Assembly (NCBI GenBank): GCA_029781115.1
Contig: JAKOXG010000004.1
Span: 124,001 to 188,000, forward strand
Reading direction: 5' to 3'
Source of the DNA: Candidatus Cloacimonadota bacterium
Lineage (GTDB): Bacteria; Cloacimonadota; Cloacimonadia; Cloacimonadales; Cloacimonadaceae
DNA length: 64,000 nucleotides
The first letter of the stretch is position 1. The number at the start of each line of letters is the position of its first letter. The position numbers and the translations under genes were made by a program. This document shows, one piece after another, positions 37,820 through 43,705 of this stretch. The notes under the pieces are model-generated. The model made no database searches, was not told the origin of the DNA, and saw only the letters and a program-made list of their open reading frames with translations.

Positions 37820-39493
37820 TCAAATCCGGGCAAAGCTTGGGCTCGGTTTTTTGGCCATAAGTATCTTGGCTGCCTTCACGATCACTTCCATATAGTCGAA
37901 AGCCTCATCCAAGCAGTAACCGAAGGTGAGCAGGCCGTGTTTGCTCCAGATGAGTGCTTTTTCGTCTTTTAGATCGGTGACGGAAGCCAGTGCAAGTGTT
38001 TCGCTTCCGGGGGGATACAGAGGGCAGACATGGATGCCGGTATCCAAAAACAGGGGCAGTTCCGGCAGAGCGGCTGCCAATTCCTGATAGAGCACCTCTT
38101 CATCTTCGATAAAGTCCTGATGTGAGAGGCAGATCACTTCAGTCGGATGGCTGTGAAGTATGACACGTCTATCCAAGCCCATCTTTTTGAAATGCCTGTG
38201 CAGATTCAGGTGGGCGTTCCATTCGGAGGTGGGTTTTGCCTCTGCGTCCAGGCAGCGATATTGATCACCCTTCACTTCAATCAGCACAAAGTTATTCATC
38301 GTGTTCCTGTCAAATTGGCGGTAGCGTGTACCGGTCTTAGACACCAAAAACAACACGGGATCATCTTCTTGCCCGCCATAATCCGTGAGGCGGATGCTCA
38401 CATTGCCTGCGTTTGCTTCCGCCCAGCCTCTCTGCCAGATGCAGGTTCCCACCTCTGCCAGATTGGCTAAGAGTTTGTCGAAGTCAATATCTTGAGGGAT
38501 AGAGGTGTATGGGAACTGCTCTTTCTTCTCCAGCTTCAGTTGCACTTGGCTGATAATCTCTCGTGCAGTGGCTAAAACGCTGCCAGGAGCGGCAGAAGTG
38601 GCGGTTTCATTTGTGAGGATAAAGCCGTCTGCGCCGTCCATGATGGCGTTGGCGATGTCTGCGACATTGGAGTGTGAGGGCGCCTCTTGATAGGCTAATG
38701 AGGCTAACAGCCCCGTGGCGATATAGATGGGTTTTCCTTTGGCGTTACAGAGCCTTGTGAGCTGTCTTTGCATGATTGGAACCTGTGCGAAAGGTATGGA
38801 TGCGCTCAGGTCTCCGCGACCCAAGAGCAGCAGGTCGGATAGATCAATCAGTTCTTCCAAATGGTCCAAAGCAGGCTTGGTCTCTATCTTGGTGCAAAGC
38901 AGACCCTTGAAGTCCTGAAGATGCTCCCTTGCAGTGCTCACCTGGCTTGGGTGATTGATGTGCGAAAGCACCACGATGTCCACATCTTGCTCCAGAGCAA
39001 AGTTCAGATAGGGGAGGTCTGGGTCTTGGTCAGAAAGACCGTTGGCGTCCAGACCCACGAAGCTGATGGAGGCATTGGGGCGCAAGATGCCGCCACTGAT
39101 GATCTTTATATCCACAGAATCGGGGGAAACCTTGCTGATTTGTGCTCTAATTTCTGAGCCTTGGATATAGACGTCCATGCCCAAGCTCAAGCTGTCCCAA
39201 GCATCAAAATTTCCTCTCAAGCCTTGAGGTGAATCGCCAAGATGGATGGTTTGTCCGGCTTCCAAAGGGAGGTTTTCGCTCAGGCCTTGCAGACGAATTT
39301 CATGACCGGGCAAGTCCAGCATGATCTTGATATTCTCGCTTTTGAGCCTGGAGGTGAGCGGCAGCAGTTCTTCCACAGAAAGGTGGGAACAGTTCAAGCG
39401 AACCATCTCCAAACCCTGCGCTACCATTTCCTCAAAAGCAGGGCTCAGGATCTGTGAGCTGTCCAAGGTGGCGATCAGGTCTATCTTGCGCAT
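37820..39493 (-). CDS. pyruvate-kinase-like barrel fused to class II aldolase
   Basis: A 557-residue fusion. Residues 1-325 match the A and B domains of pyruvate kinase: VRLNCSH (31-37), LDLPGHEIR (59-67), TKIET with the catalytic Lys202 and Glu204, GRGDLS (225-230), IATGLL with Thr260 and TNETA (294-298). The C-terminal regulatory domain of pyruvate kinase is absent. Residues 340-550 match class II aldolases of the rhamnulose-1-phosphate/fuculose-1-phosphate type: AGNVSIR (362-368), SKTGT, SEWNAH with a candidate catalytic Glu424, and zinc ligands HSH (447-449) and SKHG (His519). Both sites look intact. It lies 13 bases after a five-gene membrane operon. Substrates are unknown. Confidence 0.85.
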   Translation of the reverse strand: MRKIDLIATLDSSQILSPAFEEMVAQGLEMVRLNCSHLSVEELLPLTSRLKSENIKIMLDLPGHEIRLQGLSENLPLEAGQTIHLGDSPQGLRGNFDAWDSLSLGMDVYIQGSEIRAQISKVSPDSVDIKIISGGILRPNASISFVGLDANGLSDQDPDLPYLNFALEQDVDIVVLSHINHPSQVSTAREHLQDFKGLLCTKIETKPALDHLEELIDLSDLLLLGRGDLSASIPFAQVPIMQRQLTRLCNAKGKPIYIATGLLASLAYQEAPSHSNVADIANAIMDGADGFILTNETATSAAPGSVLATAREIISQVQLKLEKKEQFPYTSIPQDIDFDKLLANLAEVGTCIWQRGWAEANAGNVSIRLTDYGGQEDDPVLFLVSKTGTRYRQFDRNTMNNFVLIEVKGDQYRCLDAEAKPTSEWNAHLNLHRHFKKMGLDRRVILHSHPTEVICLSHQDFIEDEEVLYQELAAALPELPLFLDTGIHVCPLYPPGSETLALASVTDLKDEKALIWSKHGLLTFGYCLDEAFDYMEVIVKAAKILMAKKPSPSFARI

Positions 39494-39506: not shown

Positions 39507-40145
39507 CTACTTTATGATATGGAGCCAATCTTTGAGCAGGAATTCCAGGCGTCCGATCAAAAGCGAGATTCTGGCCATCACGGTGTAGCCAAAGGTAGCG
39601 CCAAAGCTCACCATCAGGAAATAGACGCCGATCTTGGAGGGGATTTTGGCGATACCTTCTTGCTTTTTGCTAAAGTAAAAGAAGTAGACACCGCAGATGG
39701 TGCCGATGATGATCATTAGTTTGCCCACGATCTCAGATGGGACCTTGGTTTCAAAGGGATTGATCATCGTGGCAGCCACTTGGGCGATGAGATCGCTCTT
39801 CAAGAAACGTAAGAGGCTGATAGCTGCGCTGGTTCCGATCACGATCGAAAGCGGGTAACGGCTCATCCACTGGAATTTGGGAACCATGCGCGTGATCATC
39901 ATCAGTCCCAAAACAAAGGGGATGAGCAGGATCAGGTTGCCGCTGAAGTCGGTTGCCAGTTTGTGGAAAAGATTGGGTATCAGAGCGGCATAGATGATGT
40001 AGATCAGTCCATAGCCGGCGCTCAAGCCCACGAAGATCTGCTCAGCCAGCTTGTAGAAAGGGTTATCTTTGTACAAAAAGCTGAAGATGGCAAAGGTGAA
40101 GAAAGCACCCAGCCAGATTCCGACGGTGTTCATGATCTCAGGCAT
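39507..40145 (-). CDS. conserved membrane protein, last of five-gene membrane operon
   Basis: A 212-residue protein with about six membrane helices and very short loops, positive near the ends. No motif I recognise. The start overlaps the preceding gene by eight bases, and the PK/aldolase gene begins 13 bases downstream, so it is probably cotranslated with both. I infer that it is a subunit of a membrane complex with the products of the next three genes upstream. Confidence 0.75.
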   Translation of the reverse strand: MPEIMNTVGIWLGAFFTFAIFSFLYKDNPFYKLAEQIFVGLSAGYGLIYIIYAALIPNLFHKLATDFSGNLILLIPFVLGLMMITRMVPKFQWMSRYPLSIVIGTSAAISLLRFLKSDLIAQVAATMINPFETKVPSEIVGKLMIIIGTICGVYFFYFSKKQEGIAKIPSKIGVYFLMVSFGATFGYTVMARISLLIGRLEFLLKDWLHIIK

Positions 40146-40995
40146 TTGTCACCTCCGTGTTGTTGACTTTGTCTCTTTTGCGTATCCATACCTTGATGTT
40201 GCCTGCAGCAATCAACACCAAGATCAAGATGTGAGCCACGGATTGGGCGTCCATCTTGGTGGTGGCTGGTCCCTTTTTGCCGATCAAGGCTTCATATTCA
40301 GATGCTGCCTTGAGTCCTCCTAAAAGGCCTGTGAGCTGTCCATTCTTATTCACATAGGGCAAAAAGCCGGGAGCACTCACGGCTGTAGTGCCTCCGGTAA
40401 CCGGAACTTTGTGCACGTCGTGAGCTATCATGATCCAATCCTTGAGGCCGGGCTCACCTGCTGACAGAGAGCAGATCCAGCTCAAGCCTTTGAGGTTCTT
40501 CAGGTCTTTCAACATGGGAAGCGTGTCCCAATCCCTACCGGAAGAATCCTTGGGGTACACATCCTTGAAGCTGCTGCCCAAAGCCTGGACTGTGACCATG
40601 CCGCCTACTTTGTAACCCAGATTCACATAGTCCACGCCATACTCTTTATCCTTGAAAAGCGGGTTGCGCTTGGCTTCCTCAAAGCTTTGGGCTGCCATTT
40701 GCGGGCCTTGAGGCCAGAGAGCTGTGGCAATCACCTTTTGCCCCTTGCTCCAGGCATGCTCGATCTGAGCTACAGCCATGGGTTGTATTTCGGTGATGGT
40801 GGAAGCTTCATAGTCAAAAGAGATCAAGCCAATGCCTCCTGCGGGAGTTTGGTCGATCAGATCATAGCTCATTTTTACCACCGGAGAGACGTCTGAACCC
40901 CAACCGATGGGGAAGAGGAGCGGTAGAAGCACGGCTAAGAACAGCAGGAAATACACGATGCGACGTTCGATAACAGAGCTGGTATTCTGGCTCAT
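40138..40995 (-). CDS. bitopic membrane protein with large alpha/beta domain
   Basis: A 285-residue protein. A membrane helix at about residues 14-32 leads to a domain of about 200 residues on the far side (DYEASTITEIQPMAVAQIEHAW, ALWPQGPQMAA, NLGYKVGGMVTVQALG, VPVTGGTTAVSAPGFLPYV, GQLTGLLGGLKAASEYEAL), then a second helix near residue 255 and a basic tail. The alternating strand and glycine-rich turn pattern suggests a Rossmann-like or protease-like fold, but I find no catalytic motif. It overlaps its neighbours on both sides by four to eight bases. Confidence 0.75.
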   Translation of the reverse strand: MSQNTSSVIERRIVYFLLFLAVLLPLLFPIGWGSDVSPVVKMSYDLIDQTPAGGIGLISFDYEASTITEIQPMAVAQIEHAWSKGQKVIATALWPQGPQMAAQSFEEAKRNPLFKDKEYGVDYVNLGYKVGGMVTVQALGSSFKDVYPKDSSGRDWDTLPMLKDLKNLKGLSWICSLSAGEPGLKDWIMIAHDVHKVPVTGGTTAVSAPGFLPYVNKNGQLTGLLGGLKAASEYEALIGKKGPATTKMDAQSVAHILILVLIAAGNIKVWIRKRDKVNNTEVTNA

Positions 40996-41690
40996 TTGTC
41001 ACCTCCCAAATAGGAGCGTTCTATGCCCAATATAATGCGCAAGCTGCTTCCTATGATACCCAAAGATGCGCTGATCAAGATGGCTCTTTGAGCGGCTGTG
41101 TTGGGATATTCCATGATGAAATCTGCCAAAACGGGTAGCTGCCAGATCCTGTAGCTCTCTGGAATCCAAGAGGTAAGCATGGTGCCAAAACCGGTGCGTC
41201 CCAAGATCACAATCACTGCAGAGATCATCAAAAGATTGGATTCAAAGGTGCGGATGATAAAGGCACGATAGGCAGCAGAGGCGATAAAGAAAGCCAGCAG
41301 CGAAAACATGGTGGCGGAAAGCGGAACCAGGGCGTTGTCATAGGTGTAGTCAAAGGGCTTCTTTCCCAGCCAGGAGACGATCTTCTCTCCTTGACCCAAC
41401 AAGCCGGGCTGGTCTTCCATGCCCCAGAGTGCCCCCATGATCACGATAAGTGCAAAGGCAATCACGCAAGACAAATGATAGCCCCAGTTCTCTGCTTTGG
41501 TGCTGATTTTCTGGTAGTTCATCTGTAGCAAAGAGGCCAATCCCAAGACTATGGAGAACCCGGCAATGATCATAAACCAATCCTCCAAGGTCTCCACCAT
41601 GTTGCTGAAGGGGCGATGCGGGATAAACTCACTGGCTATCATCAGTAGTCCCGCCAGGAAAGCCAAGATTAGAGGTATGTTGCGTTTCAT
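40992..41690 (-). CDS. conserved membrane protein of the DUF6754 operon
   Basis: A 232-residue protein with about six membrane helices (near residues 6-24, 38-58, 73-91, 122-142, 152-170 and 200-222) and one longer loop after helix three (GMEDQPGLLGQGEKIVSW). Family unknown to me. It overlaps the preceding and following genes by four bases each (ATGA), consistent with a stoichiometric complex. Confidence 0.75.
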   Translation of the reverse strand: MKRNIPLILAFLAGLLMIASEFIPHRPFSNMVETLEDWFMIIAGFSIVLGLASLLQMNYQKISTKAENWGYHLSCVIAFALIVIMGALWGMEDQPGLLGQGEKIVSWLGKKPFDYTYDNALVPLSATMFSLLAFFIASAAYRAFIIRTFESNLLMISAVIVILGRTGFGTMLTSWIPESYRIWQLPVLADFIMEYPNTAAQRAILISASLGIIGSSLRIILGIERSYLGGDK

Positions 41691-42799
41691 GATCCTGCTC
41701 CCATTAAGAATGTTTTAAGCCAGCTAATACCGGCGATCTCAAGGGCAACTCCCACTATGATAAGGATGATAACCAAGAGTTTGCCAAAGTCGTGCCCTTT
41801 GAGACTGCCTACCTGTTCGGCATCTCTGGAAAGGTAAGCAGATGCTGCAAAAAGCTCTTCGCCAATCAGTGTGTAGTCACAAGAAACAACAAAGAAGGGT
41901 AGCTGGTGTGCATTTGCTGTGCCTGCGGTCTGGATGGCGCCAGTGCTGAGGCCTGTCTCTGCCAGGATCAGGGATTCTGCATAGAAGGAGCCCAAAAAGA
42001 AGTTGGCTGCGGGCTCTTCCCTCACAATGATGCCGTCAATTCCAGCCACGAAACCAAATTGATCATCTGTCAGGTAGAAGATATTCTCCTCCCTGAAGGC
42101 GTCACTGCGCCCGGCCTTGAGATATGCTTCTTCGACCACTTCTCTGGCAGCGGAGAGTACCATTGAGAAGCGGCAAGGGACGATGATCTCGGTGTTGTAT
42201 TCTGCAGCTTTGTAGGCCAATTGGCTGAGGATGGAGAGTGAGGATAGCGTTTGGATGTCTCCAAGTTCAGCTACTCCGGGTACAAAGAGGATGGGCTTGC
42301 CCTTCTCTGTGGCTCTGCCTATGGCTTCTTCCATAGAATCCAAGCCACTTATGCGCCGGATGAAGAACTCTTTGCCTCGCTTGGCGGCCAGGATGTAATA
42401 GATGATGGCTGCGCTGAGGATGATCAGCATCAGGAGATAGGCCAGCTTGTCCATGTAAAACCAGTTCTGCTTTGTCATAGCCGAGGCTGAAAGCAGCAAG
42501 CTGTCTCCATCTGCGGAGCCAAGGGCCAAGAGGCGATATTTGTAGCGGGTGTCATAGCTGAGATCTTGATCCACAAAGCTGGTTTCGCCTTCCAAGGGGA
42601 TAAAGAGTGGCTGATATACTTCCAGGCTGTCCGCCTTTTGGATCTGCAGCGAGTCTATCGTAGCTGGGAGCTTCCACTCCAAGATGATGGCATCGCCCTT
42701 GTCGTAAGGCCTGTCCTTTGCTGTAAAGAGTGGAGCTCCATCCGCAAGCAGCGACGTGAGGGTGCTGAGTATGAAAAGGATGGTGAGTATACGTTTCAT
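41687..42799 (-). CDS. DUF6754 family membrane protein
   Basis: A 370-residue protein: signal peptide (about residues 1-19), a fibronectin-III-like domain (about 25-105, with the YDTRYKYRLLAL strand pattern), a membrane helix (about 118-138), a cytoplasmic or periplasmic domain (150-320), and a closing helix near 342-362. The central domain, including FVPGVAELGDIQTLSSLSIL, GFVAGIDGIIVREEPAANFFLGSF and TANAHQLPFFVVSCDYTLIGEEL, resembles what I remember of DUF6754, a family of unknown function. It is the second gene of the five-gene set. Confidence 0.72.
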   Translation of the reverse strand: MKRILTILFILSTLTSLLADGAPLFTAKDRPYDKGDAIILEWKLPATIDSLQIQKADSLEVYQPLFIPLEGETSFVDQDLSYDTRYKYRLLALGSADGDSLLLSASAMTKQNWFYMDKLAYLLMLIILSAAIIYYILAAKRGKEFFIRRISGLDSMEEAIGRATEKGKPILFVPGVAELGDIQTLSSLSILSQLAYKAAEYNTEIIVPCRFSMVLSAAREVVEEAYLKAGRSDAFREENIFYLTDDQFGFVAGIDGIIVREEPAANFFLGSFYAESLILAETGLSTGAIQTAGTANAHQLPFFVVSCDYTLIGEELFAASAYLSRDAEQVGSLKGHDFGKLLVIILIIVGVALEIAGISWLKTFLMGAGS

Positions 42800-42823
42800 A
42801 TTTGCCTCAAATCAAGAAAAGGT

Positions 42824-42857
42824 GAAATCCCAGCTCTGGGGAGAGAAGACTGGGATT
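42824..42857 (-). promoter_or_regulatory. 10-bp perfect hairpin inside the membrane operon
   Basis: GAAATCCCAG (42824-42833) and CTGGGATTTC (42848-42857) pair perfectly across a 14-base loop. On the minus strand it is followed by ACCTTTTCTT, not a clean T run, and it lies between the lipoprotein gene and the DUF6754 gene. It may act as a partial terminator or mRNA processing/stability element. Confidence 0.55.
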
Positions 42858-42901
42858 TCGTGAGGTTGCTTTAGAGGTGCTCATTTGAGCGACTGAGTTC
42901 A

Positions 42902-43705
42902 TTATTTGGGAAAAGCTTGCTTGAGCTGCTCCGTGAGTTGGATCAGCTCTTCCACTTGTTCTTTGGTATAGGTGTCGTCGGTGTGACTGGCAAGAAGCTG
43001 GCTGACTTTGGCGGTCAAATCAACTAAGCTCTTGTAGGTTTGAGTGCCCTTGAACTCTGCTGCTGAAAATAGCTCAAGGTTGGCTTGCATGGCCTTCCAG
43101 GTGCTCTCGTGGCTAAGCGCCTTGGTGGCTTCAGCTGAGTAGCTGCCGGTCAATATCTTGCCCACACCGTTTAGAGCCTCCGTCCAGCCACCCAGAATCA
43201 TCAGAGTGTAATACTCATAGTCTTCAAGCTCCCAGAGCTTGTCTTCCAGTCTCTTCCTCAGGAAATCCAAGGTCTTCTCAACTTCGCTCCACTTACCTTG
43301 CTTAGTGTAGCCGGGGAGCAAGCTGTCCAAACGCTTGATTTCATCCTGAAATCCCATGAGGTTACCGAGCTTCTTCAATTCGGCAGATGCGGCTGTAAGC
43401 TGATTTTTGTTTCTTGCCTTGGTGGCAAATACCACATCTGCAGTCAGCACTCCCAAAGCGAAGGCATTATTGTGGAGTTCGGGCTGAACGCGGTAGAACT
43501 TATCGCTCAGGCTGGGCGCATAGTCTTTGGCTTTCAGGTCGTCCAGCAGGCGAAAAGCTTCCTTGAAGGAGGGCAGCGGCGCATAGGTGGCAATCTGTGC
43601 CTTAATCTCATCTGTAGGCATCTTGGCTGCATCTCTTCTCCCTTTGCAGGATGCGAGTGTCAGGAGCAGCAAGCTTGCCAGTAAGATCATTATGATTCTT
43701 TTCAT
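42902..43705 (-). CDS. helical lipoprotein, first gene of the membrane operon
   Basis: A 267-residue lipoprotein with signal peptide and lipobox LASC at Cys20. The mature protein is almost wholly helical and charged (repeated KKL, LDSLL and QLTEQL segments), like an adaptor or scaffold of about a dozen helices. I recognise no family. It lies 102 bases before the DUF6754 gene, with a hairpin in between, and 39 bases after DUF2851. Membership in the five-gene set rests on orientation and localisation. Confidence 0.75.
   Translation of the reverse strand: MKRIIMILLASLLLLTLASCKGRRDAAKMPTDEIKAQIATYAPLPSFKEAFRLLDDLKAKDYAPSLSDKFYRVQPELHNNAFALGVLTADVVFATKARNKNQLTAASAELKKLGNLMGFQDEIKRLDSLLPGYTKQGKWSEVEKTLDFLRKRLEDKLWELEDYEYYTLMILGGWTEALNGVGKILTGSYSAEATKALSHESTWKAMQANLELFSAAEFKGTQTYKSLVDLTAKVSQLLASHTDDTYTKEQVEELIQLTEQLKQAFPK

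Follow-up and report, generated by a model that had tools for sequence, protein, structure and literature searches.

The window that we analyzed, a 64,000-nucleotide stretch of DNA from a Candidatus Cloacimonadota bacterium, encodes a protein in which a pyruvate kinase (PK) barrel is followed by a class II aldolase, and comparison with related genomes confirms that this fusion is a real two-domain protein in a small number of uncultured, Cloacimonadaceae-like bacteria, neither a chance product nor an assembly error. The explanation that we favor, and to which we would give about an even chance from sequence comparison, is that a working RhaD-type aldolase carries a repurposed, phosphoenolpyruvate (PEP)-binding PK barrel, which would serve as an accessory domain and not as an efficient kinase. 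The fusion is a new architecture built of known domains, and its distribution is restricted. An earlier, sequence-only reading of this DNA knew of no described enzyme with such a domain order; a literature search using both Pfam accessions likewise found no account of a PF00224 + PF00596 architecture, which here occurs in a phylum that uses PPDK instead of pyruvate kinase.

Both enzyme halves lie in a single 557-codon open reading frame on the minus strand (Table 1). The N-terminal half matched PF00224 (residues 1-303, E 1.8e-41, 142.8 bits against a curated cut-off of 30), and the C-terminal half matched PF00596 (Aldolase_II; residues 344-545, E 1.8e-28, 100.1 bits against a cut-off of 22.2). 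The sequence-only reading had described this frame as a PK A/B unit joined to a rhamnulose/fuculose-type aldolase, and the matches bear it out; the residue numbers that it gave (Lys202, Glu204, Arg226-Gly227-Asp228, Thr260, His447, His449, and His519) are all correct in our alignments. It had also noted that the PK C-terminal domain is missing, and indeed from residue 326 on the protein consists of linker and aldolase. The full-length PK equivalog TIGR01064 matches residues 4-330 with 191.8 bits, under its cut-off of 306.4. An AF2 model of the fusion (30 sequences) has a mean pLDDT of 90 and good confidence across the aldolase half, with weak stretches at the C-terminal end and at linker residues 328-331 (pLDDT <50), and the mutual placement of the two domains in the model is uncertain (pTM 0.61). 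In a Foldseek search against the PDB, the best 50 matches listed are all pyruvate kinases, and with phmmer the aldolase half matches the Thermotoga sugar-phosphate aldolase 1pvt.

Table 1. Features of the fusion gene and of the conserved operon upstream of it, in positions of the window
Feature	Positions	Strand	Evidence
Fusion gene, 557 aa (PK barrel followed by class II aldolase)	37820..39493	-	ORF, Pfam, homologues in G002, G001, G011
Pyruvate kinase A+B unit, residues 1-325	38519..39493	-	PF00224, TIGR01064, AF2, Foldseek
Lid B domain of PK half, residues ~70-157
Linker, residues 326-337	38483..38518	-	AF2 pLDDT
RhaD-type class II aldolase, residues 338-548	37850..38482	-	PF00596, PRK03634, residue alignment
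212-aa membrane-type protein, next upstream gene, 13 bases from fusion	39507..40145	-	synteny, same operon family-wide
285-aa membrane-type protein, conserved operon	40138..40995	-	synteny
232-aa membrane-type protein, conserved operon	40992..41690	-	synteny
DUF6754 protein, conserved operon	41687..42799	-	PF20539 E 2.7e-117, synteny
Putative lipoprotein, first gene of conserved group	42902..43705	-	synteny; lipoprotein call from N-terminus only

Both halves occur in one frame in 4 of the 125 Cloacimonadota genomes searched, spread over two genera at 34-79% identity. Besides the window genome (G000), the carriers are G002 (79%), G001 (47%), and G011 (34%, from another genus), and the copies in these three lie on different contigs of different assemblies with zero internal stops or frameshifts. 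Nearly all other members of the window's family have the aldolase without the PK half. A scan of genome contigs for the fusion reaches close relatives only, and the distribution that we describe is one within Cloacimonadota; a plasmid search gave 200 matching records, none of them covering 80% of the query. The genomes are draft assemblies, in which an assembly or sequencing error might glue two genes together, but the same junction recurs, with conserved flanks, in four genomes at 34-79% identity, and a fifth, G005, carries a deletion scar of the same fusion. We therefore reject this explanation, the chance of which we put close to nil. The earlier reading had raised a stop or frameshift at the junction, or halves that are always separate, as possible objections, and what we find is four intact copies and the scar. 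At the start of the G001 fusion (L034 12737-12800) there is no ATG, GTG, or TTG ahead of the first barrel strand, and beginning at the first ATG costs 18 residues, so this copy must either use a rare start codon or contain a sequence error.

Nearly all of the family members examined share one string of genes, which opens with those for a putative lipoprotein and a DUF6754 protein, continues with three for membrane-type proteins and one for an AMP-forming ligase, and closes with the aldolase. Since nearly all relatives have the aldolase, on its own, in this last position, it is the older, family-wide resident gene, and the PK barrel is the addition. In most relatives, the ligase, an acyl-ACP/CoA ligase-like enzyme (L034 11207-12736 and equivalents), is encoded between the membrane-protein genes and the aldolase gene; it is lost altogether in G000, G002, and G005. 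In the window, this family-wide string (39507-43705, minus strand) consists of the genes for the putative lipoprotein, the DUF6754 protein, and the three small membrane-type proteins, with identity within the genus reaching 98%.

The deletion scar is in a 99% complete genome of the same genus as the window genome, with flanking genes identical in kind. The 254-aa protein of G005 begins with MRKIDLIATFNSSQ, the first 14 residues of the PK half, continues with VDQIQQKLDEKDKP, which matches the last PK helix, and then enters an aldolase that is ~82% identical to that of the fusion, so that roughly 300 codons of the PK half have been lost in frame at the same locus. No PF00224 match is found anywhere in the G005 genome. 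Because this close relative cleanly deleted the PK part, the PK half seems to be an optional add-on to the aldolase. We looked for further scars among the standalone aldolases, and G005 remained the only case. G003, which has no PK half, groups with the fused G001 in the operon-protein tree (support 98/95), and this placement suggests either a second loss of the PK half or an independent history. In the PK tree, the fused PK halves cluster (90/90) on long branches, with the barrel-only PKs from family f2 nearby. The aldolase tree does not unite the fusions in a single clade (AU p 0.035), a result that loss of the barrel from many relatives, or its lateral movement, would produce; to keep to one origin, several losses or transfer have to be assumed. 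We favor, but do not consider shown, a history in which the PK A+B unit joined the operon's aldolase once, early in the family, and was later lost in several lineages.

The aldolase half has the features of RhaD-type class II aldolases, namely the PF00596 match, the metal His triad, Glu117, Glu171, and the phosphate site. The RhaD residues N29, N32, G76, T115, S116, E117, H141, H143, E171, and H212 are kept, and S75 is replaced by Thr. From the residue alignment, Glu424 is predicted to be catalytic, and His447, His449, and His519 are predicted metal ligands, in line with the zinc histidines of the earlier reading. The best NCBIfam match is PRK03634, rhamnulose-1-phosphate aldolase, at 149.8 bits, short of the cut-off of 170, and a sister-family homologue in L076 reaches 189.7 bits against the same model. 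In each genome of the genus, this aldolase is the sole PF00596 protein. RhaA is absent from all six genus genomes, and an FGGY sugar kinase over cut-off is absent from all 50 family genomes, the window genome being included in both counts. Rhamnose catabolism is therefore unlikely, and we reject rhamnose or fucose catabolism as the role of this gene.

Gene neighborhoods in related families give some indication of what the aldolase may act on. In four genomes of the sister family f10, the homologous RhaD-like aldolase overlaps or abuts gpsA, which encodes glycerol-3-phosphate dehydrogenase (L076 7290-9003, L096 5174-6878, L083 4662-6393, and L095 6433-8176), and this adjacency supports dihydroxyacetone phosphate (DHAP) as a likely product or substrate. 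Taken together with the acyl ligase of family f1, gpsA in f10 hints that the aldolase might have a role in glycerolipid supply. For the window aldolase, a DHAP shunt is conceivable but no more than that: the enzyme resembles RhaD, which bears on stereochemistry, and its gene is unlinked to mtnA. In family f9, a FucA/DrdA-type aldolase follows mtnA within ~10 bases (L127 3123-4810; L129 3312-5001), forming a DHAP-shunt-like pair. In the window genome, mtnA adjoins a deaminase-like TRZ/ATZ hydrolase, and the gene for a purine nucleoside phosphorylase lies elsewhere. The co-occurrence of mtnA with the aldolase is uninformative because mtnA is near-universal in the phylum (102 of 125 genomes; 46 of 50 in the family).

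We then consider the PK half, using as reference 51 positions that are near-invariant across 18 freestanding PKs. The number kept declines from 45 in G011 to 38 in G001, 32 in G000, and 31 in G002. The 14 positions that we take, from general knowledge of PK, to form the PEP/metal/K+ core are all kept in G011, and 13 are kept in each of G001, G000, and G002, with Ala243 to Gly as the sole core change in the window protein; the equivalents of K220, E222, D246, T278, R32, N34, S36, D66, and R73 are all retained. Outside the core, G000 keeps 19 of 37 near-invariant positions (Fisher p 0.005) and G002 keeps 18 of 37 (p 0.003), an enrichment computed on rows related by descent and with a core list of our own choosing. 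The residues lost in both G000 and G002 are D127, G128, G248, Q279, M280, R292, and E294; the lid pair D127-G128 has become Gly-Ser, Q279 has become Gly, and position 70 is also altered, from Pro to His or Tyr. Between these two closest copies, both halves are under similar purifying selection, with dN/dS (NG86) of 0.123 (PK) and 0.136 (aldolase), values that are approximate because synonymous sites are near saturation. Because the PK half is constrained and is altered away from the nucleotide side, we think it more probably an accessory domain that binds PEP than a standard kinase. The earlier suggestion of a working kinase is less well supported: the PEP/metal core is kept, but in this lineage 19-20 of the 51 near-invariant residues, including Asp127-Gly128 and Gln279, are gone.

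Some of our observations count against the accessory-domain reading. Between G000 and G002, the PK half is selected as strongly as the aldolase, a pattern that a working catalyst would show as well; Ala243 is the only classical PEP/metal residue missing; the PK half of G011 is near-canonical; and the aldolase tree does not group the fusions together. The fusion could be a true bifunctional enzyme with an active, non-allosteric PK, the only one in G000 and G002, whose expression is tied to that of the aldolase, and we hold this to be possible but do not favor it. The retained catalytic residues and a dN/dS of 0.12 agree with it, as do the existence of barrel-only PKs in the phylum and the lack of any PF00224 match other than the fusion in G000 and G002. 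However, the lid pair, Q279, and R292/E294 are lost though near-invariant in the freestanding PKs, G001 and G011 hold a separate canonical PK besides the fusion, and the sister genome G005, having dropped the barrel, is left with no PK. PPDK is also present: all 50 family genomes have a PPDK_N match, whereas PF00224 is found in 10 of 50, and a published reconstruction has PPDK standing in for PK in Cloacimonadota (PMC13082233). The sequence-only reading had taken the missing C-terminal domain as a sign of lost allostery; the absence is real, but it does not set the fusion apart, since barrel-only PKs of 329-347 aa also occur unfused elsewhere in the phylum. Such PKs, without a C-terminal domain, are encoded at L064-L070 in other Cloacimonadota families, with lengths of 329-366 aa, and the 366-aa protein runs off its contig end.

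It is also conceivable, though we think it unlikely, that the barrel has turned into another PEP or pyruvate enzyme, acting on a phosphate acceptor other than ADP or on an oxo-acid, with its product or substrate in the aldolase pathway. A kept PEP/metal core with lost nucleotide-lid residues, strong purifying selection, and a family without an FGGY sugar kinase over cut-off would all suit such an enzyme, but the sequence and fold matches listed for it are to PK only, no acceptor or pathway can be named, and G005 deleted the barrel while keeping the aldolase. An HpcH-type lyase, the alternative raised earlier, is unsupported, since no HpcH/HpaI-type family appears in the Pfam, NCBIfam, or PDB matches listed for the PK half, and we reject it. 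A channel shared between the halves is likewise without support, because the two reactions are not consecutive and G005 kept the aldolase alone. Finally, the barrel may be a functionless vestigial passenger on its way out, which we consider quite improbable. The stepwise loss of conserved residues from G011 through G001 to G000/G002 and the outright deletion in G005 are what a passenger might show, but its dN/dS equals that of the aldolase half, frameshifts and stops are absent from all copies, and the catalytic core is selectively retained.

From these comparisons, we propose that the aldolase half would carry out metal-dependent cleavage or formation of a ketose-1-phosphate with DHAP as one partner. 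The accessory barrel of the window lineage would most likely still bind Mg-PEP or Mg-pyruvate, would no longer be an efficient pyruvate kinase, and might act in regulation, for example by sensing PEP, or help in assembly. A bolder version, about which we are doubtful, is that the barrel has acquired a new function in direct service of the aldolase, as a PEP-dependent phosphotransferase or a sensor of PEP, and that PEP, not ATP, drives or gates the formation or cleavage of ketose phosphate by the aldolase. The genomes provide a natural series, from a near-canonical fused PK (G011) to an eroded one (G001), a strongly altered one (window and G002), a scar (G005), and the rest, in which the PK half was never fused or is lost. 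This series makes it testable what a metabolic enzyme domain is for once its original enzyme role is no longer needed.

Compared with known systems, the fusion shares with the pyruvate kinases PykF, PykA, and PKM the A-domain barrel, the inserted B domain, and the K/E/D/R/T core, but it lacks the C-terminal domain, has lost the lid, Q279, and interface residues, and scores under the TIGR01064 cut-off. The freestanding barrel-only PKs (329-347 aa, e.g., L064 7631-8620) have the same A+B unit without a C domain, and those of family f2 fall near the fusions in the tree, with weak support; they differ in being unfused and in keeping nearly all PK-invariant residues. RhaD (EC 4.1.2.19; Thermotoga 1pvt) is the best family match of the aldolase half and shares the phosphate site, Glu117, Glu171, and His141/143/212, but the score is below the PRK03634 cut-off, and the genus lacks RhaA and the family an FGGY kinase. 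The C4 stereochemistry usual for RhaD is opposite to that of DrdA, giving the other C4 epimer. The DHAP-shunt enzyme Ald2/DrdA (EC 4.1.2.62), for which the ketose phosphate substrate is 3R,4R (PMC6079011), is also a class II aldolase, and the window genome has mtnA and a purine nucleoside phosphorylase, but Ald2/DrdA is FucA-like, whereas the window aldolase is RhaD-like and unlinked to mtnA. Arabidopsis DEP1 sets a precedent, as a multifunctional fusion in which a class II aldolase-type domain is joined to a HAD phosphatase (PMC6079011); the partner domain there is a different one, and DEP1 catalyzes consecutive reactions, whereas those of the window fusion would be non-consecutive.
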